A stretch of DNA of 64,000 nt from Oscillospiraceae bacterium (lineage in GTDB: Bacteria > Bacillota > Clostridia > Oscillospirales > CAG-272): the NCBI GenBank assembly GCA_015063845.1, contig SVTJ01000002.1, positions 1 through 64,000 on the forward strand, read 5' to 3'. Positions 7,615-27,944 of this stretch are shown here, piece after piece. Within the stretch, counting starts at the first letter, position 1, and each line of letters begins with the position of its first letter. A program made the translations under genes and the position numbers. The notes under the pieces were generated by a model that had not been told where the DNA came from, made no database searches, and worked only from the letters and a program-made list of their open reading frames with translations.

Positions 7615-8829
7615 ATGATAAAGGCATGTGTTATTGGTCTTGGACAAAGAGGTTATTTTCTTCTTGAAAGTGTTTTGCTGAAAAATCACGATATAAGCAT
7701 CGTATCAGTTTGTGACCTTTATGAGGACAGAGTTGCCGCGGCGGTAAAAAAGGTACGCGAGGAAGGCGGAGATGCCCGCGGTTTTTCTGATTGGAAAGAA
7801 GCGCTTAACGTGTCGGGAGTTGATGCAGTATTTGTTTTCAGTGATTGGACAACACATACCGAAATAGCAATTTACGCTATGGAGAAGGGAATTGCGGTAG
7901 CAAGTGAGGTTGGCTGTGAGTATTCGATCGACAACTGCCACACTCTCGTCCGCACACAAGAGAAAACAGGAACTCCATATATGTTTATGGAAAACTGCTG
8001 CTACAATCGTGACGAGCTGCTCGCCACGTCAATGGCGCGACACGGTCTTTTCGGAACGCTCATTCATTGCTCGGGAACGTATTCGCATGATCTCAGAAAG
8101 GAGATCGCCTACGGACACGTTAACCGTCATTACCGTTTCGATAATTATCTGCACCGTAATTGCGATAACTACCCCACTCACGAGCTTGGCCCTATATCTA
8201 AGCTTCTTGATATAAACCGCGGAAACAGAATACTTACCGTATCCTCGTTTGCATCAAAATCCGCAGGACTTGAAGAGTATATCGCAACACGTCCCGATGC
8301 TACCGAAGAAATGAGATCGGCAAAATTCAAGCAGGGAGATATCGTTACCACCATACTCACCTGTGCTCGCGGAGAAACTATACAAATTCGTCTTGATACG
8401 ACACTCCCCCGTTCCTATGACCGTGAATTTACGGTGCGCGGAACAAAGGGAATGTATACTCAGACACTCAATGCGGTATTTTTCGACGGAGAAAAAGAAT
8501 ATTGGGAACCCTCGGATTTCGCAAGAAAATATCTTTGCAACGCAAAGAATTATGAGGATAAATACCTGCCTAGCATATGGAAAAATATAACTCCGGAGCA
8601 ACAAAAAGCGGGACACGGCGGAATGGACTGGTTTACATACGAAGCATTCACCGACGCGATAAAGAACGGCACATCTATGCCTATCGACGTATATGACAGC
8701 GCAGTATGGCAAGCCGTATCGGTATTGTCAGAGACATCTATAGCCGCGGGCGGAGCACCCCAAACGATGCCTGACTTTACAGGTGGAAAATGGATCAAAC
8801 GTCCCCGTCTTGACGTTGTCGAAATGTAA
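7615..8829 (+). CDS. Gfo/Idh/MocA-fold protein, GH109 glycosidase-like
   Basis: 404 residues. The N-terminus has a dinucleotide-binding fold (GLGQRGYF at residues 8-15, CDLYEDR). The middle carries motifs of GH109 NAD-dependent alpha-N-acetylgalactosaminidases: MENCCYNRDEL near 124-134, GTLIHCSGTYSHDLR near 145-159, and YPTHELGPISKLLDINRG near 186-203. In GH109, NAD transiently oxidises the sugar and is not consumed. A strong AAGGAGA site precedes the ATG. It converges with the AraC gene and may act with the divergent operon beyond it. A plain sugar dehydrogenase is the alternative, but the CCY and PTHELGP motifs favour GH109. Confidence 0.78.
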   Translation: MIKACVIGLGQRGYFLLESVLLKNHDISIVSVCDLYEDRVAAAVKKVREEGGDARGFSDWKEALNVSGVDAVFVFSDWTTHTEIAIYAMEKGIAVASEVGCEYSIDNCHTLVRTQEKTGTPYMFMENCCYNRDELLATSMARHGLFGTLIHCSGTYSHDLRKEIAYGHVNRHYRFDNYLHRNCDNYPTHELGPISKLLDINRGNRILTVSSFASKSAGLEEYIATRPDATEEMRSAKFKQGDIVTTILTCARGETIQIRLDTTLPRSYDREFTVRGTKGMYTQTLNAVFFDGEKEYWEPSDFARKYLCNAKNYEDKYLPSIWKNITPEQQKAGHGGMDWFTYEAFTDAIKNGTSMPIDVYDSAVWQAVSVLSETSIAAGGAPQTMPDFTGGKWIKRPRLDVVEM

Positions 8830-8840
8830 TTTAAATAAAA

Positions 8841-8877
8841 CAACGGGCAAAGTCGACGACTTTGCCCGTTGTTTTTT
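8841..8877. terminator. bidirectional intrinsic terminator
   Basis: A perfect 14-bp stem (8841-8854 with 8858-8871) and a 3-base loop, followed by six T on the plus strand and preceded by an A-rich tract, so it works both ways. It separates the convergent GH109-like gene and AraC gene. Confidence 0.93.
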
Positions 8878-9715
8878 ATTTATTCTTCTTCTGCTTCTTG
8901 TTCCTGTATTCGCTAGGAGTAAGACCCGTGTATTTGCGAAACGTAGTGGCGAACTGGATACGGTCTGAAAAGCCCGCCTCGCGTGATATTGCTTCCACCG
9001 CGATATCGGTGTTCTGCAAAAGGCGCTTTGCAATAGTCACCCTCTCCCTTATCACAGCCTGGTGGAGCGTCATTCCCGTGTGCTCCTTGAAAACTCTGTT
9101 GAGATAAAATGAATGATAGCCAAATTGTGCGGAGATGGTATCATTTGTTATGCTCTTGTCGTAATTGCTTCTGATATATTCCGCCACCTTTTCAACTATA
9201 TCAGGTATTTTTTTTGATACCGCATCGGTGTTCTGCACAGCGTAGCAGAGCACCTCTTTTATTGTTGCCGAGGTCAGCGCGTCGGACACAGCCGTAGGAA
9301 ATCGAAAGTTCGTTATGCACTCCTGAAGTCTTGCTTCGACCTCAAAGGCTTTTCTTGCGATAATATAGCCTTCAAGCTCCCGAGGAACATCGTTTTCAAG
9401 TATATTCTCAGGCTTGAAGCTGTGCCTCGGCTTTGGTCGCATTGCGTCCTTTTGTGTCTCGCAGTCGCGTGTAAGATCGAAATTAAGCACAAGCACCTTT
9501 ACGTTTCCGTCGAAATAATACGGGGTTCCCGAGCAAAGATAAAGCAAAGTTCCCGCGTCCAGATCGTATTTCCCGTTCTCCAAAATAAGCTTTGCGTTAC
9601 CGTCTATAACGTAAAATATTCGGTGATCGTAGGCATATTTCAGCGGCGCCTTAGATACGACAGACGGCTGAAGCTCAGCAAAACGCATAAAGGGATTGAT
9701 ATCCGATAACTGCAT
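8876..9715 (-). CDS. AraC family transcriptional regulator
   Basis: 279 residues: an N-terminal cupin-type sensor domain (FYVIDGNAKLILENGKYDLDAGTLLYL) and a C-terminal pair of helix-turn-helix units ending in GFSDRIQFATTFRKYTGLTPSEYR, the AraC signature. Members of this layout bind a sugar or similar effector. Start: the frame is open back to 9796, but the ATG at 9715 has GGAG six bases upstream, and the predicted transcription start (about 9761) rules out the longest form. It is transcribed away from the U32/QueG operon and shares a palindromic promoter with it, so it probably controls that operon. Confidence 0.9.
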   Translation of the reverse strand: MQLSDINPFMRFAELQPSVVSKAPLKYAYDHRIFYVIDGNAKLILENGKYDLDAGTLLYLCSGTPYYFDGNVKVLVLNFDLTRDCETQKDAMRPKPRHSFKPENILENDVPRELEGYIIARKAFEVEARLQECITNFRFPTAVSDALTSATIKEVLCYAVQNTDAVSKKIPDIVEKVAEYIRSNYDKSITNDTISAQFGYHSFYLNRVFKEHTGMTLHQAVIRERVTIAKRLLQNTDIAVEAISREAGFSDRIQFATTFRKYTGLTPSEYRNKKQKKNK

Positions 9716-9762
9716 AATATACTCCAAAAGTTTGTTTTTCATACATAAGTGTTTGTATTTTG

Positions 9763-9798
9763 TATTGATTATAACATAAAAATAAGTTATAATCAATA
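9763..9798. promoter_or_regulatory. palindromic divergent promoter of araC-type gene and U32/QueG operon
   Basis: A perfect 13-bp inverted repeat (9763-9775 and 9786-9798) with a 10-base AT spacer. Each arm holds both TTGATT and, on the other strand, TATAAT. Rightward promoter: -35 TTGATT 9765-9770, 17 bases, -10 TATAAT 9788-9793. Leftward promoter: the mirror image, -35 at 9796-9791 and -10 at 9773-9768, also 17 bases. The two polymerases would use the same DNA, so firing is likely exclusive. The symmetric arms could also be the regulator's site. Confidence 0.75.
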
Positions 9799-9856
9799 TG
9801 TATACTTGAATTTATTTTTATTTTGTTTTTCAAACAAGGTACTACGGAGGAAAAAT

Positions 9857-10888
9857 ATGAAATACATAGTGGGATATCCCACGGATGCGAGACCCGATTT
9901 TGCCGACGTTGCGATACGCTATAAGGAGCACATCAGCGAGGTGTACTTTTCCTTTGGGGATTTCCCAAACGGACGAAACACAGTAACGGTAGACGGAGAG
10001 CTACCATTTGAGCGTCAGGCAAGACAGCTCGATGCCCTTGAAAAGATGTCACGCGAGGGTATAAAATTCAATATGCTGTTCAACGGAAACTGTTATGGCA
10101 AGGACAGCCAATCCCGTGCGCTGTTCAACAAGATCGGTGACACGACAGATTTCATTCAGCGCAAGTTCGGTTTGAATTCGGTCACGACCTCGTCTGTACT
10201 TATCGCGAAATTCATTCACGAAAATTTTGGTGGAATTGACGTGCGAGCGTCGGTCAATATGGAGATAGGTACGCCCGAAGGAATGTCGTACGTATCAAAC
10301 GTCTTTGACAGTCTTTATCTCAAGAGGGAATACAACCGAGACCGAAAAGCTCTTATGCGTATGCGAGAGTGGTGCGACGCGAACGGCAAACAAATGTATC
10401 TGCTTGCCAACAGCGGCTGTCTCAATTTCTGCTCTGCTCACACCTTCCACGACAATCTCGTCTCTCACGAGGCAGAGATCGCGGGAATGGACAACGGCTA
10501 TGAGTTCAGAGGTGTTTGTTGGGATTATCTCTCAAGCGATGCGGGACGTGCCGAATGGCTCTCCCGAACAAATTTCATTCGTCCCGAGGATATCGAGCTT
10601 TATGATGGACTTGTTCCTGCCGTCAAGCTTGCGACACGTGTAAATTCCTCACCCGAAAGAGTGATAAGAGCATACGTAGATGCAAAATACCGTGGCTCGG
10701 TCATGGATCTGCTTGAACCTAATCACAGCGGAGCTTTCTATCCGAGCATAGTTGATAATGGCGAGATACCAAACGGCTTTGCAAATACGGTCCTTGATTG
10801 CGACAAGCATTGCGAGACCTGCGGAAAATGCAAAGAAATAATGAAAAAAGCAACAAAGACACTTAATATCGAAACATTTAATATCTGA
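9857..10888 (+). CDS. peptidase U32-like TIM-barrel protein with Cys cluster
   Basis: 343 residues. The fold resembles U32 family proteins: repeated strand-helix units, LLANSGCLNFCSAHTFHDN (the NxGC-x3-C-x-H core) near residue 184, and a C-terminal cluster CDKHCETCGKC within the last 30 residues. U32 proteins such as UbiU/UbiV and TrhP bind a 4Fe-4S cluster and carry out oxygen-independent hydroxylation; others are called collagenases on weak grounds. Which applies here is unknown. GGAGG six bases before 9857 fixes the start; the open frame upstream reaches into the promoter. First gene of the AraC-linked operon. Confidence 0.65.
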   Translation: MKYIVGYPTDARPDFADVAIRYKEHISEVYFSFGDFPNGRNTVTVDGELPFERQARQLDALEKMSREGIKFNMLFNGNCYGKDSQSRALFNKIGDTTDFIQRKFGLNSVTTSSVLIAKFIHENFGGIDVRASVNMEIGTPEGMSYVSNVFDSLYLKREYNRDRKALMRMREWCDANGKQMYLLANSGCLNFCSAHTFHDNLVSHEAEIAGMDNGYEFRGVCWDYLSSDAGRAEWLSRTNFIRPEDIELYDGLVPAVKLATRVNSSPERVIRAYVDAKYRGSVMDLLEPNHSGAFYPSIVDNGEIPNGFANTVLDCDKHCETCGKCKEIMKKATKTLNIETFNI

Positions 10889-10910
10889 AGTACATATAAG
10901 GAGAAATACA

Positions 10911-11990
10911 ATGCTTACAAGCGAGATGATCAAAAAAGTGGCAAAAGAGGCGGGAGCAGATGCCTGCGGTATCGCGCCGATATCAAGGCTCAGCGGTGCA
11001 CCCGACGATATGAACCCCAAGTTCCTTTTCCCCGAGGCGAAGAGCGTTATCGGATTTGTATTTCGCATACCTCGCGGAGTACAGAGAGGAATAGAGGAGG
11101 GCACCCAGTTTTATCAGTACCCCTCTATGGCATACGGCGGTATCAACGAGATATTTGCGCCTGCCGTTCTTTACCAGGTAGGAAAGCTTATTGAGGACGA
11201 GGGATATGAAGCATTCGTTTACAGAAATACGGGTGCGAGAGGAAGCGTCTCGGATATGGACGGAAGCCCCGGAAACACCCTCTCTCCCGAGGAGCAGATA
11301 GAGATAAATGAAAACGCAAAGACGTCTACGGCGCACCATAGAAGCGTGCAGTTTACAAGAGCGACAAGAGACATCAACGTAGCTCCCGACCTTCAGTTCC
11401 AGTTCCGCCTTGTGGCAGTCGCTTGCGGACTTGGCGAAATAGGCTGGAGCAAGATGCTGCTCACACCTGAGTTCGGACCTCTTCAGCGTGTGGCGTTTAT
11501 ATTCACCGACGCGGAGCTTGAATATGACGAGATGTACAACGGAGAGCCGCTTTGCCGCAAGTGCGGAGCGTGTGTCCGCGAGTGCCCGGGTGGCTGTATT
11601 CCCGCGATAAATTCGGGTAAGACGATAACAGTCGACCTTGATGGTAAGATATGCGAATGGGGAGACATAGATATGTGGCGTTGCTACGCGTTCTACACGC
11701 ATGCAGGCAGATACTACAATCCCTTTGTTCCCAAGGAAGTCTGGGATAAGAACGAAAACGGAGACCTTGACCTTATGGAGGGTGTGACCGACGTTGCCGA
11801 CGAAAAAGAGATCATGAAGGTCTACGGCGCGCTTCAGAAGTACTTCCCGAGCTGGGTAGGCTATAACATGGCGAAATGCGGAGGCTGTATAAGAGCTTGC
11901 GTTTCCATGCTCGAAAAGAAGGGCGGCTGTATGGAAGGCAGATTTGAAGAGCCGCTTCGCAGCAAGAAGGCTTGGAGGCTTGACAGATGA
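10911..11990 (+). CDS. QueG-like 4Fe-4S double-cluster protein 1
   Basis: 359 residues. The N-terminal part (GADACGIAPISRL, AKSVIGFVFRIPRG) and the CGLGEIGWSKMLLTPEFGPLQRVAFIFTDAEL core match the epoxyqueuosine reductase/reductive dehalogenase superfamily. The first cluster is CRKCGACVRECPGG (C-x2-C-x2-C-x3-CP) near residue 217. The second is CGGC-x3-C near 323, separated by an insertion that makes this the longest of the three paralogues. True QueG needs cobalamin; whether this one binds a corrinoid cannot be read from the sequence. It overlaps the cupin gene by four bases. Confidence 0.75.
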   Translation: MLTSEMIKKVAKEAGADACGIAPISRLSGAPDDMNPKFLFPEAKSVIGFVFRIPRGVQRGIEEGTQFYQYPSMAYGGINEIFAPAVLYQVGKLIEDEGYEAFVYRNTGARGSVSDMDGSPGNTLSPEEQIEINENAKTSTAHHRSVQFTRATRDINVAPDLQFQFRLVAVACGLGEIGWSKMLLTPEFGPLQRVAFIFTDAELEYDEMYNGEPLCRKCGACVRECPGGCIPAINSGKTITVDLDGKICEWGDIDMWRCYAFYTHAGRYYNPFVPKEVWDKNENGDLDLMEGVTDVADEKEIMKVYGALQKYFPSWVGYNMAKCGGCIRACVSMLEKKGGCMEGRFEEPLRSKKAWRLDR

Positions 11991-12334
11991 TAGAGCAGTA
12001 CTCCTATACGGACGAGGGCTGGAATGTCCTTATGGAAAGCGGCGAATGGAAGATAGGAATGCTTCGCCACAACGAGCGTTTCAGTAAATTTTCCGAGCTG
12101 GAGATACATATGCTCACAGACGAAGCGTTCGTGCTTCTCGCGGGAAGTGCGACACTTAATACGGACAGTGAGCAGGTAGAAATGAAGCCGCTTACGGTCT
12201 ATAATATCCCCGCAGGCGTATGGCATCATATAGTTGTCAGCGAGGATGCGTCCGTGCTTGTAGTAGAAAACAGAAATACGAGCAAAGAAAACACAAAAAA
12301 GAAATATTTAAACACCCAAGGAGGTAGAGTTTGA
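11987..12334 (+). CDS. small cupin-domain protein
   Basis: 115 residues with a single cupin-like beta barrel: EIHMLTDEAFVLLAGSATLNTD (first cupin block; E and one H present) and MKPLTVYNIPAGVWHHIVV (second block with PAGVWH). It may bind a metal and a small substrate, or sense one. It is inserted between two QueG-like genes with overlaps on both sides (ATGA upstream, TGATG downstream), so its product is probably needed in step with them. Enzyme or sensor cannot be decided. Confidence 0.72.
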   Translation: MIEQYSYTDEGWNVLMESGEWKIGMLRHNERFSKFSELEIHMLTDEAFVLLAGSATLNTDSEQVEMKPLTVYNIPAGVWHHIVVSEDASVLVVENRNTSKENTKKKYLNTQGGRV

Positions 12335-13248
12335 TGTTGACCGCACAAATGATAAAGGAAAAGGCTCGTGAGCTTGGCGCGAGCGTTTGCGGTATAGGAA
12401 AGATATATGAGGAAAGCGATCCGCAGAGAGATCCGCTCAGCATTCTCCCCAAGGCAAAGACCATCATAGGCTTTGGCTTTGTTATCCCTCGCACGCTCTT
12501 TACAAATATGGATAAGGGCGTTCAGTATTACACCTATACTACACTTGGCGTAAAATACCCCGACGAGGAGCTTGCCGAGATATTTCTCTTAAAGATAGGC
12601 GGAATGATAGAGGACCACGGCTACGATGCTTGCTTGCAGAAGGCTATACCCAATCTTCGCATCAAGGGGGATAAGACGACCAATCCCGAAGTCGCGGATA
12701 CATATGAGCTTATTCACGCAGAGGCAGTTGAGGCGGGAAAGCCCGCCCCCGACGTTATTATCGACTTTGGAAAGGCGGCAAAGGCGTGCGGAATAGGAAA
12801 TACAGGTATGAGCGGAAAGGTGCTCAGCCCCGTTTACGGTCCGTTTATACGCTACTGCTTTATAATCACGGATGCGCCTCTTGAGACCGACGAGCCGCTT
12901 TGTGACAGCGTTTGCGACAGATGCGGCAAGTGCGCGGAAGCGTGCGTAGGAAACGCTATTTCCGAGGACGGACTTGACACGTGGCAGTGCGCCGTTTACT
13001 ACAAGGGCGCGCACAAGTCAAATCCCTTTATGACAGATGCTTTTCTTGCTGGACACCCCGAAAGAGACGCTATCCTCAACGGAGAAAAGCGTTTTGACGC
13101 CGAGAGCGCAAGAGAGATATACCCCCAGATGAACTTCCTGCCGCATACGCAGTGGGGCTATGCTCCGTGCCTTTGCGGAAGAAAATGTGACGTTGCTTGC
13201 TACAACCACCTGCGCGATGCAGGCAAGCTGACAAGAAAAACAAAGTAA
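12334..13248 (+). CDS. QueG-like 4Fe-4S double-cluster protein 2
   Basis: 304 residues, paralogue of the proteins at 10911 and 13262. It starts LTAQMIKEKARELGASVCGIG, has the CGIGNTGMSGKVLSPVYGPFIRYCFIITDAPL core, the first Fe-S motif CDRCGKCAEAC near residue 192, and the second motif CLCGRKCDVAC near 281. The two clusters would pass electrons to a substrate site in the N-terminal domain. Start at ATG 12334, sharing one base with the cupin stop, behind a full AAGGAGGT site at 12318-12325; a TTG just upstream is ignored. Confidence 0.75.
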   Translation: MLTAQMIKEKARELGASVCGIGKIYEESDPQRDPLSILPKAKTIIGFGFVIPRTLFTNMDKGVQYYTYTTLGVKYPDEELAEIFLLKIGGMIEDHGYDACLQKAIPNLRIKGDKTTNPEVADTYELIHAEAVEAGKPAPDVIIDFGKAAKACGIGNTGMSGKVLSPVYGPFIRYCFIITDAPLETDEPLCDSVCDRCGKCAEACVGNAISEDGLDTWQCAVYYKGAHKSNPFMTDAFLAGHPERDAILNGEKRFDAESAREIYPQMNFLPHTQWGYAPCLCGRKCDVACYNHLRDAGKLTRKTK

Positions 13249-13261
13249 GGAGGGGAACGAT

Positions 13262-14203
13262 ATGAAGAATACTATTACAGAGCTTTGTAAAAAATGGGGC
13301 GCTGACCTTGTCGGCTTTGCTCCAATAGACCGTTTTCCCGCTAACAGTGCAGTAAGAAAGCTTCTCCCCGAGGCAAAGACCGTCATAGGTCTTGGCTTTA
13401 GAGTTCTTCGCGGAGCATACCGCGGTATCGAAGAGGGAAGCACGTACTACCAGTATACGACTATGGCAGTCGAAAACATGGAAGAGACCGTTATGCCCAT
13501 GGTGCAGGTCCGTCTTTCTATGTACCTTGAGGAAGAGGGATATCTCGCGCTTCCTCAGCGCCGTCACCAGCAGATAATGGCAGAGGAAAACTCAACAAAT
13601 CCAGAGGTGGCTTATGACGCGGTATACAGAAGCAGACCGCAGGAAACACAGATGGATTTCTCCGAGGCGGCAGTTCTTTGCGGGCTTGGAGAGATAGGAC
13701 TTCACGGAGCTATACTTACCGATGAGTTCGGTCCTTTCGTACGTGTTTGCTTTGTGCTCACCGACGCAGAGATCGAGCCCACCGAAATAAAGAAACCGCA
13801 CCTGTGCGACAAGTGCGGAGAGTGCGTGAAGGGCTGCCCGGGTAAGGCTATTTCCGAGGACGGAAAGGTAGATCCTTGGCAATGCGCGGTCTACTATAAC
13901 GGAGCAAACGGAACAAAAAATCCGTTTATGCCGCCTGAGGCATTTGCGAGCTTTGACGATAGAATTGAGATAATCGCAGGCGAGGCAAAGGTAACACCGG
14001 AAACTGCACGAAAAATACTTGACAACATATATTTCTATCCCCCCGCACAGCACGCATATCAGTGCTCTATTTGCGGCAGAGCCTGCGATATGAGCTGTTA
14101 TATGCACCTCGAGCAAAAGGGAGTTCTCACAAAGAGCTTTAACACACCCTTCCGCAAGAGAGACGAGTGGAAATTTGACATCAAGGATTTTGATATCGAA
14201 TGA
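13262..14203 (+). CDS. QueG-like 4Fe-4S double-cluster protein 3
   Basis: 313 residues, closest in motif spacing to protein 2. N-terminus CKKWGADLVGFAPIDRFP, core CGLGEIGLHGAILTDEFGPFVRVCFVLTDAEI, Fe-S motif one CDKCGECVKGCPGKAI near residue 182, motif two CSICGRACDMSCYMHL near 263. The DPWQCAVYYNGANG stretch is shared with protein 2 (DTWQCAVYYKGA), which shows descent from one duplication. AAGGAGGGG precedes the ATG by a normal distance. Its last codons overlap or abut the next gene. Confidence 0.77.
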   Translation: MKNTITELCKKWGADLVGFAPIDRFPANSAVRKLLPEAKTVIGLGFRVLRGAYRGIEEGSTYYQYTTMAVENMEETVMPMVQVRLSMYLEEEGYLALPQRRHQQIMAEENSTNPEVAYDAVYRSRPQETQMDFSEAAVLCGLGEIGLHGAILTDEFGPFVRVCFVLTDAEIEPTEIKKPHLCDKCGECVKGCPGKAISEDGKVDPWQCAVYYNGANGTKNPFMPPEAFASFDDRIEIIAGEAKVTPETARKILDNIYFYPPAQHAYQCSICGRACDMSCYMHLEQKGVLTKSFNTPFRKRDEWKFDIKDFDIE

Positions 14204-14211
14204 GGTATTTT

Positions 14212-15930
14212 ATGAAAGATATACGCTTTTATGCTTTTGACGACAAGGGCAACCGATACGATTTTACTACTTGCGTAAAGGACGGCATCGTAAAGCATAC
14301 TCTTTGCCATACTCTTTTTGAGAGTGCTGAATATATCACCGTTCATTGTGACGCGTTTGATGCAAAGGCAGGCGACGAAGGCTATTTTCTATTCCCGCAC
14401 GGAAGAAGAGCAAAGGGCTCTCCCATAGTTTACTTTAAGGAGAGGGAGGATAGCGAGCTGTTCGTTGACGACGCAAGCACCGCCCACTTCTCCGTGGCAA
14501 ATGCAGAAGGTATATTCACGGTCTTGTTTGACAGAGTATACAGATTTTCCTGCGTGGGAGAATGTAAAGATAACAACTACAAGATATATCTCCGTTTTCC
14601 TTTTGATATACAACCGGCGTCAGATGACATAACGCTCAGCATTTATCCTCTTCCCAAGGGAAGCGACTATAACGACGTTGCAAGGCTTATAAGAGAGCTA
14701 AGACTGAAAAACGGCGAGGTACGCCCTCTTGCACAAAAGTGTCGTGAGCGCGAAGCGCTTGATTATATGCGTCAAGCGCCTATGATACGTATACGAATGG
14801 GCTGGAAGCCAATGCCCTCTCCCGTACCCCACCAGACTATCGAAAACGAGCCTCCAATGCACGTTGCTTGCACCTTCAAGCGAGTAAGAGAGATAGCCGA
14901 CGAGTTCAAGGCTCAGGGTGTTGAAAAAGCAAATCTTTGTCTTGTCGGTTGGAATCAAAAGGGGCACGACGGCCGTTGGCCGCAAATATTCCCCGTTGAA
15001 GAAGCTCTTGGCGGTGAGCAAGAATTAAAAAAGACTGTTGCATACGTTCAGTCTCTGGGATATATGATAACGTGTCATACCAATTCAAGCGATTGCTATG
15101 AGATAGCCGACTGCTTTAACAAGGACGAGCTTTCTATGCTAAAGGACGGTATTACGTACACAGGCGGAAAAGGCAGAGGCTGGAGCGGCGGAGTTGCGTA
15201 TCATCAATGTCTGCCTTATCAGCTAAAAACAGCAGAAAAGCTTCTTCCTATGGTAAAAGAGATAGGATTTAAGGGAATACACTATATCGACGTTATTACC
15301 ATTGAAACGCCACGTCCTTGCTTCAATCCCGCGCATCCCTGTTCTATGAAGGAAGCAATGGACTATAATCTTCGTATTATGAGATTTGCAAGCGATCTTT
15401 TCGGCGGATTCTCATCTGAGGGCTGTATGGATTATACGCTTGGTATACTTGACCATTCGCTTTACGGATATTTTGACAAGGACGTGGATACGGCTCTATT
15501 TGACGGAGCTATTCCTATGTGGGAGCTTATCTACCACGGAATAACGCTTTACAATTATAGCAGTAGAACCGTAAACTATACGATAAAAGGAGAAACGGAG
15601 CGTATCGACGCGCTTTTGTTCGGAGGAAATCCCGCGTTCTATTTCTACTCAAAATTCGTTGATACTACGGGAGCTAACTGGATGGGAGAAAACGACCTTC
15701 TGGCTAATGATGACGAGCAGCTGAAGAGCAGCGTTGCCGCAATAAAGCGCGCTTGCGACGAGTTTGACGCTCAGAGACAGCTTGTTTATATGAAGTCGTT
15801 TGAACGGCTTGATAACGGACTGTGCGTCGTAACGTATGAGGACGGAGTAACTTACGTCGGAAATTACAGCGAGAATGATGCTGTATATAACGGAGTTACT
15901 GTTCCCGCGCTTGACGTAAAAATAATATAA
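14212..15930 (+). CDS. glycoside hydrolase-like TIM-barrel protein (DUF5696/GH101-like)
   Basis: About 572 residues with an N-terminal beta-rich region and a central barrel: NLCLVGWNQKGHDGRWPQIFP near 240-260, GYMITCHTNSSD near 285, GIHYIDVITIETPRPC near 358 (candidate catalytic Asp), and FSSEGCMDYTLG near 405. The order of blocks recalls the DUF5696 and endo-alpha-N-acetylgalactosaminidase (GH101) barrels; this is by memory, so the substrate is open. No signal peptide, so cytoplasmic. ATG 14212 is preferred (GAGG six bases upstream); ATG 14200 would overlap the previous stop by four bases. Last gene of the operon. Confidence 0.65.
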   Translation: MKDIRFYAFDDKGNRYDFTTCVKDGIVKHTLCHTLFESAEYITVHCDAFDAKAGDEGYFLFPHGRRAKGSPIVYFKEREDSELFVDDASTAHFSVANAEGIFTVLFDRVYRFSCVGECKDNNYKIYLRFPFDIQPASDDITLSIYPLPKGSDYNDVARLIRELRLKNGEVRPLAQKCREREALDYMRQAPMIRIRMGWKPMPSPVPHQTIENEPPMHVACTFKRVREIADEFKAQGVEKANLCLVGWNQKGHDGRWPQIFPVEEALGGEQELKKTVAYVQSLGYMITCHTNSSDCYEIADCFNKDELSMLKDGITYTGGKGRGWSGGVAYHQCLPYQLKTAEKLLPMVKEIGFKGIHYIDVITIETPRPCFNPAHPCSMKEAMDYNLRIMRFASDLFGGFSSEGCMDYTLGILDHSLYGYFDKDVDTALFDGAIPMWELIYHGITLYNYSSRTVNYTIKGETERIDALLFGGNPAFYFYSKFVDTTGANWMGENDLLANDDEQLKSSVAAIKRACDEFDAQRQLVYMKSFERLDNGLCVVTYEDGVTYVGNYSENDAVYNGVTVPALDVKII

Positions 15931-15937
15931 TAAGATC

Positions 15938-15967
15938 AAAGGGTATTTCTTTGAAGAAATACCCTTT
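15938..15967 (+). terminator. intrinsic terminator of the U32/QueG operon
   Basis: A perfect 13-bp stem (15938-15950 with 15955-15967), loop TTGA, followed by a T-rich tract from 15971. Confidence 0.9.
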
Positions 15968-18889: not shown

Positions 18890-20251
18890 ATGTCTTATCT
18901 TGACGAAATTTTGGAAATTTGGAAGCTCGCTTTCAAGAATATTTCCGCCAATAAAACAAGCTCCTTTGCAAACTTGTGGTTCAAGGATCTGAACATACAT
19001 TCATACGACGGAAAAACGATAGTTTTTTCAACCGACTCTGATTTCAAATACGGAATTATAAAGAATAATCATCTCGAGCTTCTTAAAAATGCTTTGTCGG
19101 AATATCTTCCTTGCGAAGTCGATATTATTTTGCTCGGAGAGCAGAAACAAGAGATCAAACAAACTCAAGAAGTTGTTCCCGAGAATAAAGAAGAAAAGCA
19201 AGCTCACGACGTAAGCTTTGACGAGGGATTTGATCAGATACATAATCCCGAATATACGTTTGAAAACTTTATTGTCGGTAACTCAAATAAATTTGCACAT
19301 GCGGCGTGTACAGCAGTTGCTCAGAAGCCCGCTATGGACTATAATCCTTTGTTTATATACGGTCCGAGCGGACTTGGAAAAACTCACCTTATATGCGCGA
19401 TAGTTAATGAGATAAAGAAAAAGAAGCCCGATACTCAGGTGATATATATAACAGGTGAGGATTTTACAAATCAGCTTGTTGAAAGCATCGCAAAGAAGGA
19501 TACCATTCGCTTCCACAACAGATTTAGAAGCTGTGATATACTTCTCATAGACGATATTCAGTTTATCGCGGGAAGAGTATCAACGCAGGAAGAGTTTTTC
19601 CATACCTTTAATGCGCTTCACCAGGAGCAAAAACAGATAATCCTCACGTCTGACCGTCCGCCTAAGGACATAGCAACGCTTGAGGAAAGATTGAGAACAA
19701 GATTTGAGTGGGGACTTATAGCTGATATCCAGCCACCCGATCTCGAACTCAGACTTGCGATATTTAAGAAAAAGGTCGAGCAGGCAAAGATAAATATTTC
19801 TGACGACGTTCTCCTTTTCCTTGCGGAAAATCTCCGTTCAAACATAAGGCAGATAGAGGGAGCTATTAAAAAGCTTTCCGCGAAGAGCCTTATTATGAAT
19901 CAAACTATAGATATGGAGCTTGCAAAGAGCTGTCTTAATGAGCTTCTCGGCGGCAGTGAGCCTGTGAGCACCACGGTAGATAAGATATTCTCGGCAGTAT
20001 ACGATAAATACGGAGTTTCAAAGGAAGAAATAAAGGGAAAGAACAGAGTTAAGAGAATAGCTTGGGCAAGACAGTTAACTATTTATCTCATTCGTGAGAT
20101 AACCGAGCTTTCCTTCCCGGATATAGGAGATATAGTTGAAAAAGACCATTCAACAGTTATGTACTCTTATGAGCAGGTTGGAAAGAAGATAACTTCAAAT
20201 CCCATGATCGAGCTTGAGATTGGAGAGCTTCAAAAAGACATTTTGGGTTGA
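18890..20251 (+). CDS. dnaA: chromosomal replication initiator protein DnaA
   Basis: 453 residues. Domain I spans about 1-85, a short acidic/Gln-rich linker follows (to 115), then the AAA+ domain with Walker A GPSGLGKT from residue 158, Walker B LLIDDIQF near 218-225 and the EERLRTRFEWG box. Domain IV at the C-terminus ends in EKDHSTVMYSYEQVGKK, the DNA-reading helix; the usual sequence is DHTTVxHA, so T-T is S-T and H-A is Y-S here. It opens oriC by binding DnaA boxes. AAGGAG precedes the ATG. The following 428-base gap carries likely binding sites. Confidence 0.98.
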   Translation: MSYLDEILEIWKLAFKNISANKTSSFANLWFKDLNIHSYDGKTIVFSTDSDFKYGIIKNNHLELLKNALSEYLPCEVDIILLGEQKQEIKQTQEVVPENKEEKQAHDVSFDEGFDQIHNPEYTFENFIVGNSNKFAHAACTAVAQKPAMDYNPLFIYGPSGLGKTHLICAIVNEIKKKKPDTQVIYITGEDFTNQLVESIAKKDTIRFHNRFRSCDILLIDDIQFIAGRVSTQEEFFHTFNALHQEQKQIILTSDRPPKDIATLEERLRTRFEWGLIADIQPPDLELRLAIFKKKVEQAKINISDDVLLFLAENLRSNIRQIEGAIKKLSAKSLIMNQTIDMELAKSCLNELLGGSEPVSTTVDKIFSAVYDKYGVSKEEIKGKNRVKRIAWARQLTIYLIREITELSFPDIGDIVEKDHSTVMYSYEQVGKKITSNPMIELEIGELQKDILG

Positions 20252-20679
20252 TATCAACAGCTTTTCAACATTTCAAAATAACATAACATATACTTAGTAT
20301 TGCTTTTTCCACAATAATTAAAAAACATTAAATGTTGAAAAAAAACATAAAAAATCAACTTTTTAAAAAAACTGCTTAAAAGTTGTTTGATTTCGGTTCA
20401 ATTTTTTTAAAGATGCGTTTTTCTTGCTTTTTTAAGTATTGAAAACTCAGTTTTTTTCAACATCCAATCAACTGTTAATCACCATCTTTTGAATTTTTTA
20501 ACAAGTCAAAAACTCGCATTTTTCAATGCGTCTTTGGACTTTTAAACAGTTTCAACAGCCCCTAATAATACTATTACTATTTTATATTATATTTATATTT
20601 TTTATAGGCGTCGCGGACGGAAAAAATGTCGGTTAAAAAAAAGTGAAAAAACGCCTGTGGAAAAAAGAAAGGAAGAATT
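20252..20679. other. probable oriC: AT-rich dnaA-dnaN spacer with DnaA-box-like sites
   Basis: A 428-base gap without a gene, strongly AT-rich. Nonamers like the DnaA box TTATCCACA occur repeatedly but with T at the third base: TTTTCCACA at 20305-20313 and, inverted, 20656-20664; TTTTCAACA at 20262-20270, inverted 20333-20341, and 20454-20462; GTTTCAACA at 20549-20557; ATATCAACA at 20251-20259. The stretch 20571-20605 is almost pure A/T and could be the unwinding element. Position between dnaA and dnaN is the usual place of oriC in Firmicutes. Confidence 0.7.
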
Positions 20680-21837
20680 ATGAAAATAATATTCAACAGA
20701 AACGCAGTCAGCGCAGCAGTAGCTCCCCTTATGTGTGCAGTTTCGGGTAAATCCACACTTTCTACCATTGAGGGTATACTTATAGAGGCAAGATTTCCCG
20801 ACGTATGTACAATGACGACCTATGACCTTGAAAAGGGTGTAAGAATAACTATCGAAGCAAAGGTAATTGAAGAGGGAAGCTTTATAATCAATGCTCAAAA
20901 ATTTAATCAAACACTCAGAGTTATGGACGGTGAGGAGATAACACTCACAGTTGATGACAGACTTACGGCAACTATAGTAAGCGGACGCTCGTCCCATAAA
21001 ATGAACGCTCTTCGCGGAGAGGACTTTCCTATGGTCCCCGATCTTAAGAGTGACAGAAGCTTTATTATAGGTCAGTCGGTTCTTAAGGATATGCTTTCAA
21101 AGGTAGACTTTGCTATGGGTATAAACGACCAGAGAGCAGTTCTTAACGGTACTTATATGAAGATAAGCGACGATACCGTAATGGTAGTGTCCTGCGATAG
21201 CTTCAAGCTTGCAAAGTGCGCAAAGAAAACAGAGCTTGTAAATAAGAATACAAACGGTAAGGATCACCTTGAATATGCGTTTATAATTCCCGTAAAGACG
21301 GTAAACGAGCTTTCAAGACTTCTTTCCGATGACAATGATGCTCTTACTCAAATATATGTTACAAGAAAGCACATAGTTTTGCTTATAGGCGAGCTTACGT
21401 TCTTCTCCAGACTTATAGAGGGAGAGTATATCGATTACGATAGAATAATCGTAAAGACACATAAGATAGAAGTTAAGGTAGATAAGAGAGAAATACTCGG
21501 CGCGCTTGACAGAGCAGCTCTTGTTACCGAGGAAAAGATAGCCGGAAGCATGCGCTCGCACGTAAAGCTTGAGGCTTCTGGCGACGTACTTAAGATATCC
21601 GCTGTATCAACTGCGGGAAGCACGTATGAAGAGCTGTTTATTGAGCACGAGGGCGACGATATCGTTATCGCGTTTAATAATAAGTATCTTATAGACAGTA
21701 TAAAGGCGTGTGATAGCGAAAAGATACTTCTCAATCTTTCTTCTCCTCTCACGAGCATGAATATTCAGCCTGCAGATGAGGGTGAAGATGTTAACGATGA
21801 GATCTTTATGCTTCTGCCCGTAAGAACAAAGGACTGA
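20680..21837 (+). CDS. dnaN: DNA polymerase III beta sliding clamp
   Basis: 385 residues, slightly longer than the usual 366-380, with the three repeated clamp domains. Recognisable segments include the start MKIIFNRNAVSAAVAPLMCAVSGKSTLSTIEGILI, the AQKFNQTLRVMDGEE stretch, VLNGTYMKISDD and the ending FMLLPVRT, the expected clamp C-terminus where client peptides dock. It forms a ring around DNA that holds the polymerase. AAGGAAG precedes the ATG. It is four bases from recF; the small yaaA (S4) gene often found between them is absent. Confidence 0.97.
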   Translation: MKIIFNRNAVSAAVAPLMCAVSGKSTLSTIEGILIEARFPDVCTMTTYDLEKGVRITIEAKVIEEGSFIINAQKFNQTLRVMDGEEITLTVDDRLTATIVSGRSSHKMNALRGEDFPMVPDLKSDRSFIIGQSVLKDMLSKVDFAMGINDQRAVLNGTYMKISDDTVMVVSCDSFKLAKCAKKTELVNKNTNGKDHLEYAFIIPVKTVNELSRLLSDDNDALTQIYVTRKHIVLLIGELTFFSRLIEGEYIDYDRIIVKTHKIEVKVDKREILGALDRAALVTEEKIAGSMRSHVKLEASGDVLKISAVSTAGSTYEELFIEHEGDDIVIAFNNKYLIDSIKACDSEKILLNLSSPLTSMNIQPADEGEDVNDEIFMLLPVRTKD

Positions 21838-21841
21838 TAAA

Positions 21842-22957
21842 TTGTACTGTAAGAGTATTTCAGTAAGAGATTTCCGCAATATTGAGAACGCTGAGGTCAC
21901 GTTTTGTGAGGGTGTGAACGTACTTGCGGGTGAGAATGCGCAGGGAAAGACAAACCTGCTTGAAGCGATTTTTTATGCTTCAGTGGGAAGAAGCTTTCGT
22001 TCGGCATATACCTCTCAAATGATACGCTTCGGCTGTGAGAGCGCGGATATATCTCTTAATTTCAGGGATAGTAAGAGAGACCAGAATATTCACGTCCGTA
22101 TTTTTCACGACAAGCAAAGACTTGTTGAAAAAAACGGAGTTAGAGCTGAAAAGCTTTCGGATATAATGGGAAGCTTCAGAAGCGTTTTATTTTGTCCCGA
22201 GCATTTGTCGCTTATAAAGGACGGTCCGTCGGAGAGACGCGCTTACCTTGATATGGCGATAAGCAGAATGTATCCTATGTATATACATTCGTTGCAAAAA
22301 TATAATCATATTCTCAAGCAGAGAAACGCTCTTATAAAAAATGCGGTAGCCGATAGAGAGACATTTAACTCAACCGTTGAGCTTTGGAGCATGCAGCTCG
22401 CTCACGAGGCGGCTGTTATATCGGATATGAGACTTAGGTTTATAAGACGTGCTGAGGTATATATATCGAGATTTTTCAGTGAGATGACTGACGGCGGAGA
22501 ACAGCCAAAGGTAATATATCACGGAAATGCGGGTCTTTGTGAGGATGATTATCTTGACAGAAAAAAGACAGAAGAGAGATATTTGGAGCTTTTGATGAGC
22601 TCTCACGAGCGTGAGATCTACACAGGAGCAACGCTTTTTGGAACTCATAAAGATGATCTTGATATAAGCTTAAACGGCAAGAGCGCAAGAATTTACGCCT
22701 CTCAGGGGCAGCAAAGGTCTTTGGCTCTTTCTATGAAGCTTGCAGAGGGAGAGATATGTCGCGAAGAATTTGGTGATTATCCCGTGTTTTTGTTTGATGA
22801 CGTGCTCTCTGAGCTTGACGTCAGACGAAGAGATTATCTTATAAACCGAATGAAGGATAAGCAGGTCATAATCACGACCTGCGAGCCCGATGCTTTATCA
22901 GCTTTGATAGACGGTGTAAAGATAAAAGTAAGCGGCGGAAAATATCAAAGCATTTAA
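21842..22957 (+). CDS. recF: DNA replication and repair protein RecF
   Basis: 371 residues. YCKSISVRDFRNIENAEVTFCEGVNVLAGENAQGKTNLLEAIF carries the RecF Walker A (GENAQGKTN, about 30-38); the C-terminus has SQGQQRSLALSMKLAEGEI (ABC signature) and FLFDDVLSELD (Walker B). It loads RecA at gaps. The start is TTG at 21842, eight bases after AAAGGA; no ATG is available without losing the conserved first strand. Co-transcribed with dnaN. Confidence 0.96.
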   Translation: MYCKSISVRDFRNIENAEVTFCEGVNVLAGENAQGKTNLLEAIFYASVGRSFRSAYTSQMIRFGCESADISLNFRDSKRDQNIHVRIFHDKQRLVEKNGVRAEKLSDIMGSFRSVLFCPEHLSLIKDGPSERRAYLDMAISRMYPMYIHSLQKYNHILKQRNALIKNAVADRETFNSTVELWSMQLAHEAAVISDMRLRFIRRAEVYISRFFSEMTDGGEQPKVIYHGNAGLCEDDYLDRKKTEERYLELLMSSHEREIYTGATLFGTHKDDLDISLNGKSARIYASQGQQRSLALSMKLAEGEICREEFGDYPVFLFDDVLSELDVRRRDYLINRMKDKQVIITTCEPDALSALIDGVKIKVSGGKYQSI

Positions 22958-22987
22958 TACCCTTGAAAAGCTTAAAAGGGGGAACTT

Positions 22988-23245
22988 ATGTACTTACATA
23001 TAGGTAACAACAGAATAATAAGGACCGGCAGTATAGTCGGAATATTCGAAATGGATAATGCGACTGTATCAATGGTAACAAGAAACTTTTTAAGTAATAT
23101 GCAAAAGGATTATCTTGTTGAGGCGGCTTCTTATGAAATACCAAAATCCTTTATTCTCTATGAGGAGCACGGAGAATGTAAGGTATGCTTTTCTCCTTTG
23201 TCGGTATCGGCTCTTAAGGGAAGAATAGCGGAAAAAAAGATATAA
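22988..23245 (+). CDS. remB: RemB/YaaB-like DUF370 regulator
   Basis: 85 residues: MYLHIGNNRIIRTGSIVGIFEMDNATVSMVTRNFL, the DUF370 signature of RemB (B. subtilis YaaB), which sits at the same place between recF and gyrB in Bacillus. RemB and its paralogue RemA act in control of extracellular matrix genes; RemA is a DNA-binding ring-former, while RemB's role is less clear. An AAAGGGGGA site precedes the ATG. Confidence 0.88.
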   Translation: MYLHIGNNRIIRTGSIVGIFEMDNATVSMVTRNFLSNMQKDYLVEAASYEIPKSFILYEEHGECKVCFSPLSVSALKGRIAEKKI

Positions 23246-25216
<1,971 letters not shown>

Positions 25217-25221
25217 TAAAG

Positions 25222-25242
25222 TTTTCCACAGGCTGTGGAAAA
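25222..25242. other. inverted pair of DnaA-box-like sites between gyrB and gyrA
   Basis: TTTTCCACA (25222-25230) and its exact inverse TGTGGAAAA (25234-25242) are separated by three bases. The same nonamer occurs twice in the dnaA-dnaN spacer. No T-run follows on the plus strand, so a terminator is unlikely. The 166-base gyrB-gyrA gap is otherwise without obvious features. Confidence 0.55.
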
Positions 25243-25382
25243 AAATGTGTAAAACTTGATATAAAACTGCCGAGAAGGCAATGGATACAACAAAAGAATA
25301 GGTATTTGGAAAAGCTATACAGCTTGAGCAAAAGCTGTTGAAACAGAGTGAAAACCTATTTGCGAAAGGTAGGAACATCGAA

Positions 25383-27944
25383 TTGGAAAATGAAAATATA
25401 GCGTTTGAAAATCAAAAAATAGTCGAAGTGGATATGGAAAAAGAGGTAAAGAGATCCTTTATCGAATATTCTATGTCTGTTATCGCGGCACGTGCGCTTC
25501 CCGACGTAAGAGACGGTATGAAGCCAGGTCAGAGAAGGATCATGTATGCTATGTACGAGGACCATCTGACAAGTGATAAGCCGTTCAGAAAGTCGGCAAC
25601 CACAGTCGGTAACGTGCTCGGTAGATATCACCCTCACGGAGACAGCGCGGTATACGGCACAATGGTAAGAATGGCTCAGGACTTCTCATACCGTTATCCG
25701 CTCGTTGAGGGTCACGGAAACTTCGGCTCGGTCGACGGAGACGGAGCTGCTGCATACCGTTATACCGAGGCAAGAATGGCAAAGATAGCGGACGAGCTTA
25801 TGAGAGATCTCGAAAAAGAGGTCGTTGACTTCGTGCCGAACTTCGATAACCGTTTGCGCGAGCCCAAGGTATTGCCCTCGCGTTTTCCCAATCTGCTTGT
25901 AAATGGAGCTGTCGGTATAGCTGTCGGTATGGCTACGAATATCCCGCCTCATAATCTTGGCGAGGTAATTGACGCTACTATATACCGTATGGACAATCCC
26001 GAGTGTGAGGTCCTCGACCTTATGGAATACGTAAAGGGTCCCGATTTCCCCACGAGCGCAACGGTTTACGGCGTTAACGGAATCGTCCAGGCGTATACGA
26101 CGGGACGTGGCCGTGTAATGGTCAGAGCAAAGGCTGAGGTCGATGAGGATAATCACCGTATTATCGTTACGGAGATTCCTTACGGTGTAAATAAGAGCAC
26201 ACTTGTTGAGGTCATAGCAGGTCTTGGCAAGGATAAGAGAATAGACGGACTTACCGAGATAAGAGACGAATCTGGCAGAGACGGTATGCGTATCGTTATC
26301 GAGCACCGCAGAGACGCAAACGGTCAGGTAATTCTCAATCAGCTTTATAAGTATTCCGAGATGCAGAGCACCTGCGCTATAAATATGCTTGCGCTTGTAA
26401 ATAACGAGCCTAAGATACTCTCGCTTCCTCAGATACTCGATCTTTATATTGAGCATCAGAAGTCAGTCATATATCGTAGAACGCAGTTTGAGCTTGAAAA
26501 GGCAAAGGCAAGAGCGCATATATATGAGGGATATCATATAGCTATCGATAATATCGACAGAATTATCGAGATAATGAAGAGCTCTATGTCTATTCCCGAG
26601 GCAAAGCAGAGACTTATGGAGGAGTTCTTTACCGTAACTTATAAGGACGGCTATGAGAACGAGCTTGGAAATATCCGCCAGCTCTCCGATGCTCAGGCTC
26701 AGGCGATAGTCGAGATGACGCTCGGTAAGCTCACGGGAATGGAAAGAGACAAGATAGAGGAAGAGCTTGCAAGACTTCACGGTATAATTCTTGAGCTCGA
26801 AGGCATTCTTGCAGATCCCGCAAAGGTAGTTCAGATCATTAAGGATGAGATGCTTGAGATAAAGAGAAAATATTCCGACGCAAGACGCACCGAGATAATC
26901 GCTGCGACCGATGATATCGACCTTGAGGACCTTATAGAGAAGCATGAGTGTGTTATCACTATGTCTCACGCAGGCTATATCAAGCGTCAGCCCGCAGATA
27001 CTTATTCCGCGCAGAGAAGAGGCGGAAAGGGTATTATCGGAATGACAACAAAGGAAGACGACTTTATCGAAAAGGTAATAGGTGTTCACAGTCATTCCTA
27101 CCTTATGCTCTTTACAAGCAAGGGAAGAGTGCATACGCGTAAGGCATATCAGATACCCGAGGCTTCAAGAACGGCAAAGGGAACTAATATCGTAAATATC
27201 CTTGAGCTGTTCCCCGAGGAAAAGATAACCTCTATGATAAGTGTAGATGGCTTTAATGAGGGCGAATACCTTACAATGGTAACAAATAAGGGCGTTATCA
27301 AGAGAACGCTGCTCTCCGAGTATGAATATCAGAGAAAGAGCGGAAAGATAGCTCTCAAACTTGACGAGGACGACGAGCTGGTATTCGTAATGCATACAAC
27401 CGGTGAAAAGGAGATAGTTCTCGCAACCAGAAACGGAAACGCGGTCAAGTACGCCGAGCAGAATGTTCGCGCTATGGGCAGAACCGCGCGAGGAGTACGC
27501 GGTATCAGCCTCAGAGGAGACGACTACGTAACGGGTGTTGCTATCGTTGAAGAGGGCAAGAAGCTTATAACCGTAACAGAGAACGGCTTTGGAAAGCGCA
27601 CCGACTTCGATGACTTCAGAGTAATGAAGAACAGAGGCGGCTTTGGCGTTATATGTCATAACATATCCGAAAAGACAGGAGAGCTGTGCGGAATAGCTAC
27701 CGTTGGCGACGAGGACGACCTTATGATGATAACCGACAGCGGAACTATCATCCGTACTCCCGTTGCGGATATCCCCACGTATTCAAGAAGCGCAGGCGGT
27801 GTCATTGTTATGAGACTTAACGAGGGACAAAAGCTTGTAAACTTTACGCGCGTGCCTCACGAGGACGCAGAGGAGACCGAGGCAGAGGAGCAAAGCTCCG
27901 AGACACAGGTAGTAACCGAAGCTGTCGAGACCAGCGAGGAATAA
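25383..27944 (+). CDS. gyrA: DNA gyrase subunit A
   Basis: About 853 residues. The breakage-reunion domain has [34 protein letters not shown] and the catalytic Tyr127 in RYTEAR; the C-terminal beta-pinwheel has the GyrA box QRRGGKG (marks gyrase, not topoisomerase IV) and ends in an acidic tail. In the quinolone region, position 83 (E. coli numbering) is Ser as usual, but position 87 is Gly (Gly92 here), not Asp or Glu. Start: TTG 25383 with AGGA eight bases upstream is preferred; TTG 25338 has no clear site and ATG 25434 would cut conserved sequence close. Confidence 0.96.

Follow-up and report, generated by a model that had tools for sequence, protein, structure and literature searches.

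The question raised by this locus is why three related iron-sulfur (Fe-S) proteins are encoded side by side with a U32-fold protein in one bacterial operon, and which reaction such a set might carry out. The locus lies in a 64,000-nucleotide stretch of DNA from an Oscillospiraceae bacterium (assembly GCA_015063845.1, contig SVTJ01000002.1, positions 1 to 64,000), here called the window, which is part of contig C12 in a 1.88 Mb genome that is 96.7% complete. At positions 9857-15930, six genes on the + strand follow one another with gaps of 22 and 13 bases and overlaps of 1-4 bases, confirming the tight packing described in the first-pass annotation, and encode in order a U32-fold protein, the Fe-S protein Q1, a small cupin, the Fe-S proteins Q2 and Q3, and a glycosidase-like protein (gene 6). 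The cassette is real, conserved and built from known superfamilies. Its most plausible reading, which in our judgment falls just short of an even chance, is an inducible, cytoplasmic corrinoid/Fe-S reductase set that works with a U32 partner on a sugar-linked substrate.

The conservation of the cassette was assessed by a U32-like profile search of genome contigs, which gave 441 pattern matches, 420 of them encoding relatives; the locus counts refer to the best 80 of these 420 by similarity to the window's U32 protein and thus describe close relatives only. Open reading frames (ORFs) below 90 amino acids were left out of the neighbor clustering, and longer overlapping ORFs mask some genes (for instance Q1 in L041 and a Q gene in L033), so that the cupin count is a lower bound and the ORF table contains fewer genes than the loci do. 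The full quartet of U32, Q1, Q2 and Q3 occurs in 63 of the 80 loci and is co-linear in the window's order in 61 of these, the other two (L071 and L072) carrying Q1-Q3 on the opposite strand; among the 17 incomplete loci, 14 are cut off by the end of their contig after at most about 2 kb and three lack Q genes. The core genes therefore recur together and in order, and the six-gene set proposed at first pass stands for its four-gene core but not for the cupin (at least 20 of 80 loci, in 19 of those between Q1 and Q2) or the DUF5696 gene 6 (13 of 80, directly after Q3 in 9 of the 63 complete loci), both of which are optional. In an order-level sample of 394 genomes, a U32-like match at E <= 1e-3 occurs in 23 and a Q-like match at E <= 1e-10 in 40; at stricter thresholds, chosen post hoc, U32 is found in 21, Q in 29 and both in 20 (Fisher p 1.0e-25, a statistic that ignores kinship), and a Q1 orthologue, present in 14 genomes, is in every case accompanied by the U32 gene. 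The one other sampled genome of the same genus lacks the set and only one other genome of the family has it, a patchy presence that marks an accessory set. Cassettes were found in Clostridia, Lentisphaerota, Opitutales and Planctomycetia, and many of the relatives originate, according to record titles, from herbivore gut communities.

The likely chemistry depends on what the Q proteins are. Q1 (10911..11990, + strand; 359 residues, with Y70, R193 and eight Cys), Q2 (12334..13248, +; 304 residues, with an alternative TTG start at 12331) and Q3 (13262..14203, +; 313 residues) have TIGR02486, the family of reductive dehalogenases (RDases), as their best NCBIfam match, at 37.5, 52.6 and 52.1 bits against a cut-off of 160.35; their scores to QueG (TIGR00276) are 28-45 bits (best 45.4) against a cut-off of 200, and they are the only QueG matches in their own genome. 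Among PDB profiles at E <= 0.01, they match RDases, QueG and, weakly and through no more than the cluster motif, ferredoxin-type chains, and only RDases (8q4h, 4uqu, 4ras/6zxu) and QueG give matches that start well upstream of the first Cys. The Q family was also compared by profile with nine control RDases, all Tat-bearing (twin-arginine translocation) members of the family scoring >250 bits to TIGR02486; residues 3-264 of Q1 align with both the cobalamin and the ferredoxin regions of these controls (probability 99.7, E 1.7e-26). In a set of 205 proteins (70 Q1, 65 Q2, 63 Q3 and seven labelled Qs), the Tyr that is invariant in 9/9 controls is kept in 70/70 Q1, 65/65 Q2, 60/63 Q3 and 7/7 Qs (202/205), with Phe in the three deviating Q3 proteins. 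The equivalent of PceA R305, which aligns with residue 305 of 4uqu in the numbering of the PDB profile alignment, is kept in 70/70 Q1, 65/65 Q2, 62/63 Q3 and 7/7 Qs (204/205). By its position the Tyr would correspond to PceA Y246, PceA itself being outside that alignment. Published work describes Y246 and R305 of PceA as catalytic by mutagenesis (PMC11921367), names them together with N272 as conserved (PMC6737245) and treats their roles further (PMC5500849). The two Cys clusters per protein noted at first pass hold as well, since all eight RDase-type Fe-S ligands (C..C..C...C, C, C..C...C) are present in every one of the 70 Q1, 65 Q2 and 63 Q3 proteins; in four of the seven Qs proteins, one ligand is Glu.

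These features place Q1-Q3, by homology, in the class III B12 superfamily as putative 2x[4Fe-4S] proteins that would bind a corrinoid, outside both the RDases and QueG. One paper has class III comprise two enzyme kinds, reductive dehalogenases and epoxyqueuosine reductases (PMC7585037). According to the QueG structure paper, further families may exist, though hard to detect for want of a distinct cobalamin-binding motif; it also describes a Tyr conserved in characterized members and, for QueG, a DYH motif and a C-terminal domain (PMC4646009). RDases have reportedly been produced in E. coli with cobalamin uptake (PMC7585037, PMC13101508). With RDases such as RdhA and PceA, Q1-Q3 share the alignment over the cobalamin and ferredoxin regions, the eight Fe-S Cys, the Tyr and the Arg, but they are shorter (295-362 residues versus 462-474 in the nine control ORFs), separate their fifth and sixth Cys by 59-65 residues, compared with 11 in one control (L147), and occur as three side-by-side paralogues with a U32 partner and sugar-enzyme neighbors. 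A Tat signal, sought in the first 40 residues of Q proteins and the first 70 residues of the stop-to-stop ORFs of the controls, is absent from all 205 Q proteins and present in 9/9 controls. With QueG, they have in common the class III architecture, the conserved Tyr and the lack of an export signal; they differ in the RDase-type Arg, in lacking DYH (0/205), and in ending 3-57 residues past the last cluster Cys, with no C-terminal repeat domain.

A signature that ends at the Tyr position, RG-x2-RG[IV]EEG[TS]-x4-[YF], occurs in 69/70 Q1, 52/63 Q3 and 7/7 Qs and in 0/65 Q2. In the form RG-x2-RG[IV]EEG[TS]-x4-Y, lost in Q2, it may mark a larger family that includes two-Q operons, fused double-Q proteins and, as the smallest arrangement, one Q gene adjoining one U32 gene. 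The tandem two-Q operons (L207-L214, e.g. L208:8425-10407) have no adjoining U32 gene in eight stretches and an adjoining AraC-type gene in seven, and all nine AraC-type genes at such loci match the window's AraC protein at E <= 1e-3. Asp precedes the Tyr in all eight of their first-type proteins, with L208:8425-9273 reading DYH. In L213, the operon is followed by an alpha-N-acetylglucosaminidase-like gene, while L214:11845-14166 encodes 774 residues that by eye comprise two fused Q-like domains, with AraC-type genes on both flanks.

A canonical QueG (tRNA queuosine) triplicated by chance would account for the weak QueG similarity and for the Asp before the Tyr in the eight two-Q proteins, one of them with DYH; yet this candidate was ruled out by the scores below cut-off, the absence of DYH from 205/205 proteins and the missing C-terminal domain, and the distribution is, moreover, patchy and AraC-linked. 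It is exceedingly improbable, and the treatment of these proteins at first pass as distinct from QueG acting on tRNA was correct. True reductive dehalogenation of a halogenated gut compound, with the U32 protein and the glycosidase as side activities, would agree with the RDase-like Tyr, Arg and eight Cys and with TIGR02486 as the best family match; it is quite improbable given scores of 37.5-52.6 bits versus 160.35, the lack of a Tat signal in 205/205 proteins and the sugar enzymes among several recurrent neighbors.

The three Q proteins are not recent copies of one another. In a tree of 15 Q1, 13 Q2, 13 Q3, seven Qs, nine RDases and E. coli QueG, Q1, Q2 and Q3 are each monophyletic (100% bootstrap), with Q2 as the sister group of Q3; QueG and one RDase carry a long-branch warning, and the side of the root is unsure. 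It follows from these separate clades that the triplication took place before the cassette spread. Conservation is highest in Q1, which has a mean column identity of 83% compared with 68% for Q2, 66% for Q3 and 57% for U32 (in slightly differing subsets) and an identity of 61-94% to 39 relatives; even the Planctomycetia Q1 (L126) is 74% identical to that of the window. A Q1 tree of 70 rows contains, judged by record titles, 59 from Bacillota, five from Lentisphaerota, one from Verrucomicrobiota (Opitutales), one from Planctomycetota and four without a group, including the window; the Bacillota rows all fall to the same side of a supported branch, so that recent transfer between phyla is not supported.

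The partner protein, gene 1 (9857..10888, +; 343 residues), was recognized by its predicted structure, a U32-type barrel closest to 5D88, and its assignment to the U32 fold rests on this model and not on a sequence family match. No family was matched in Pfam or NCBIfam at E <= 0.1; a PF01136 search of its own genome found two other genes, gene 1 not among them; hhalign comparison with the single E. coli sequences of UbiU, UbiV and TrhP gave nothing significant, and the PDB profile match to 5D88 reached only E 2. Neither of the two U32 alignments shows any variation at C79, C188, C192 or C221, and the protein probably carries an Fe-S cluster. The first-pass annotation had identified a U32 protein from a four-Cys tail; the fold prediction sustains the identification but not the argument, as the tail (CxxxCxxCxxC, residues 315-325) is variable, being present in 48 of 79 relatives. 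By hand count, the tail (window 10799-10831) is absent in 15 of 20 cupin loci versus 16 of 59 others, a contrast that is blurred by masked cupins and cut contigs and may reflect descent. Gene 1 thus resembles known U32 proteins (5D88; UbiU/UbiV, TrhP, RlhA) in its barrel, its four invariant Cys and its anaerobic setting, and differs from them in lacking a Pfam U32 match, in its Cys arrangement (C79, C188-x3-C192, C221) and in being tied to B12-type proteins. According to a review, U32 oxidases act without O2 and "typically" have the motif CX6CX15CX3C (PMC11574389), which gene 1 does not contain. Prephenate is the proposed oxygen donor for UbiU/UbiV and for RNA-modifying U32 proteins. The U32 fold and the O2-independence of U32 oxidases would suit a net oxygen-shift pathway in which the U32 protein draws on prephenate to hydroxylate the substrate and the Q proteins remove another oxygen; such a pathway is improbable, however, since no match to E. 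coli UbiU, UbiV and TrhP emerged at the sequence level and the Cys spacing diverges.

For the reductase set proposed here, the following scheme may be envisaged. The AraC-type regulator would switch on a cytoplasmic, anaerobic redox module in which the Q proteins, as a class III B12-type family that has had no name so far, would pass low-potential electrons through their two [4Fe-4S] clusters to a base-off corrinoid, bringing it to the Co(I) state. The Co(I) species could then break a polar C-O bond, or one like it, by reduction, the conserved Tyr/Arg pair donating the proton, while the U32 partner may act on the same substrate or take up those electrons, for example to shift or insert oxygen without O2. 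The substrate would be a sugar or sugar conjugate, which in the present genome the GH129-like enzyme would set free. The first-pass annotation had envisaged the three reductases as a multi-step chain; we prefer a single complex of the three Q proteins over successive steps, and the Q tree fits a fixed complex as well as a chain. The host carries a B12-dependent methionine synthase-like gene, which suggests that a corrinoid is probably available. At its most far-reaching, the cassette would represent a new class III B12 branch for sugar chemistry, in which a fixed set of three corrinoid/Fe-S reductases and a U32 partner would let anaerobic gut bacteria remove or relocate oxygen on a substrate derived from glycans, a proposal that we put forward tentatively and with more doubt than confidence.

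The main rival holds that the Q proteins have no working corrinoid and are Fe-S electron-transfer or activating proteins feeding the U32 protein, which would do the chemistry; RamA-type activases serve corrinoid enzymes. The smallest set of one Q beside one U32 would suit this explanation, as would the Fe-S ligands being the best-kept part of the Q proteins and the methionine synthase-like gene being the sole B12 sign in the host, where the riboswitch and BtuR searches were empty. The RDase Tyr and Arg, however, show stricter conservation than one would expect an electron carrier to need, Q1 is the most conserved gene, and two-Q operons exist without an adjoining U32 gene. We consider this explanation unlikely, though a serious contender.

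Several observations weigh against the corrinoid reductase set. The U32 gene stands without Q neighbors in three of the 80 loci (L084, L098 and L121), where the contig continues, which shows that U32 is able to stand without Q, and a strong Q match occurs without a strong U32 match in nine of the 394 genomes. Even among RDases the Arg varies (8/9 controls have it), the loop of the Asn272 type aligns poorly in the comparison of the Q and RDase families, and the AlphaFold2 model of Q1 is poor, with a predicted local distance difference test score (pLDDT) of 60.9, probably through too little alignment diversity. Furthermore, C-O bonds offer poor leaving groups compared with halides, most cassettes lack the glycosidase, and the neighbors vary. 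The search of the host genome for a cobalamin riboswitch and for CobA/BtuR found neither; this we rate as neutral because adenosylation is not known to be required by class III enzymes. As an observation of its own, the Q-less locus L121:9929-19962 codes, besides the U32 protein, for DUF5696, an AXE1 esterase, four members of the Gfo/Idh/MocA cluster and a member of a radical-SAM cluster.

The inducibility of the set is suggested by its regulator. A divergent AraC-type gene (8876..9742, - strand; 288 residues from the ATG at 9742, longest ORF to 9796; Pfam HTH_18 1.6e-20), whose product has a weak cupin-like Pfam match at its N-terminus, is separated from the U32 gene by 114 bases (9743-9856), within which lies an inverted repeat at 9763-9798. 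An AraC-type gene on the opposite strand is the immediate upstream neighbor in 50 of the 80 loci, and the window's AraC protein matches all 50 of these at E <= 1e-3, as well as 71 of the 72 members of the AraC cluster. The repeat, TTGATTATA-N14-TATAATCAA, recurs with <=3 mismatches in 26 of 53 AraC/U32 gaps, the window included, versus a mean of 0.32 and a maximum of 2 in 50 mononucleotide shuffles, the gaps being related by descent. This palindrome harbors two overlapping promoter-like sites that face each other, and it is compatible with a switch that would allow either AraC or the operon to be transcribed but not both. The shared promoter control put forward at first pass is supported in so far as the operon is conserved together with a regulator.

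The link to sugars is one of association, in genomes rich in sugar genes. Gene 6 (14200..15930, +; Pfam DUF5696 9.9e-31) resembles GH129 glycosidases: its profile matches 5wzn, an alpha-N-acetylgalactosaminidase (GH129), over the barrel at E 9.4e-36, and GH101 more weakly. D364 and E407 of gene 6, invariant in 14 sequences, align with D435 and E478 of 5wzn, which we take to be the catalytic Asp/Glu pair of NagBb. Apart from this likeness to the GH129/GH101/DUF5696 enzymes, gene 6 is set apart by being optional, a Gfo/Idh/MocA-type gene standing in the same position at other loci: a gene of cluster c3, whose scanned members are Gfo/Idh/MocA proteins and which is distant from the window's GH109-type gene, is the next same-strand gene after Q3 in 14 of the 63 complete loci. 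Single neighbors that were scanned include a sugar isomerase-like protein, LacI, MFS, aldose epimerase, GH3, an AXE1 esterase and a glycyl radical enzyme with its activase, together with two of non-sugar type, one VWA protein and one methyltransferase. The glycyl radical cluster is present in four of the 80 loci (L070, L090, L093 and L096), all with DUF5696 and three with the activase cluster, and its three scanned members score under every NCBIfam cut-off. The glycosidic substrate suggested at first pass thus keeps its association with GH129-like, GH109-like, Gfo/Idh/MocA, isomerase-like and glycyl radical genes nearby, and gains nothing beyond association; halosugars, inositols and mucin O-glycans are candidate substrates that the data do not separate.

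If such a link is true, a cofactor-dependent route would be added to glycan use in herbivore gut communities. The cassette is in any case a concrete, strongly conserved class III candidate with a partner protein, a regulator, an operator-like site and a sugar-catabolic setting, and it connects B12-type proteins with an uncharacterized U32 lineage, a link of relevance to oxygen-free oxygen chemistry in the gut. Among the open-licence PMC papers listed in the literature searches, none describes the cassette.

Further details concern the flanks and the optional genes. The small cupin (11987..12334, +; Pfam Cupin_2 2.7e-6) has H41, E46 and H80 invariant in six aligned sequences. In L129:12434-13345 and L130:12427-13338, a gene lies between the cupin and Q2, encoding an EamA-type transporter in L129, which is a possible clue to uptake. 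In L070:6759-8975, an uncharacterized glycyl radical enzyme, its activase and three Gfo/Idh/MocA-type genes lie upstream of the cassette; the presumed thiyl region of this enzyme reads VGCNWMC, unlike the usual motif, GC-x-E. Outside the operon, a GH109-type Gfo/Idh/MocA protein of 404 residues is encoded at 7615..8829 (+; Glyco_hydro_109_C 7.7e-54), close to the GH129-like gene 6, so that two unrelated alpha-N-acetylgalactosaminidase-like types occur together; a bidirectional hairpin at 8837-8875 separates the GH109-type gene from the AraC gene and the operon. The probable end of the operon is marked by a hairpin with a T-rich tail at 15938..15967. The region holds 12 terminator-like sites versus a shuffle mean of 7.9 (standard deviation 3.0), which is statistically weak for this site; the hairpin stands out through its 13-pair stem and its position directly 3' of the last stop. 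Searches of the window with Rfam at gathering thresholds and for tRNA genes gave no match, and a role in anti-phage defence was rejected, the six proteins having no PADLOC match at E <= 0.01. The gene order dnaA, dnaN, recF, gyrB, gyrA, read by eye from the translations at 18890-27944 of the window, indicates that the cassette is probably close to the replication origin.

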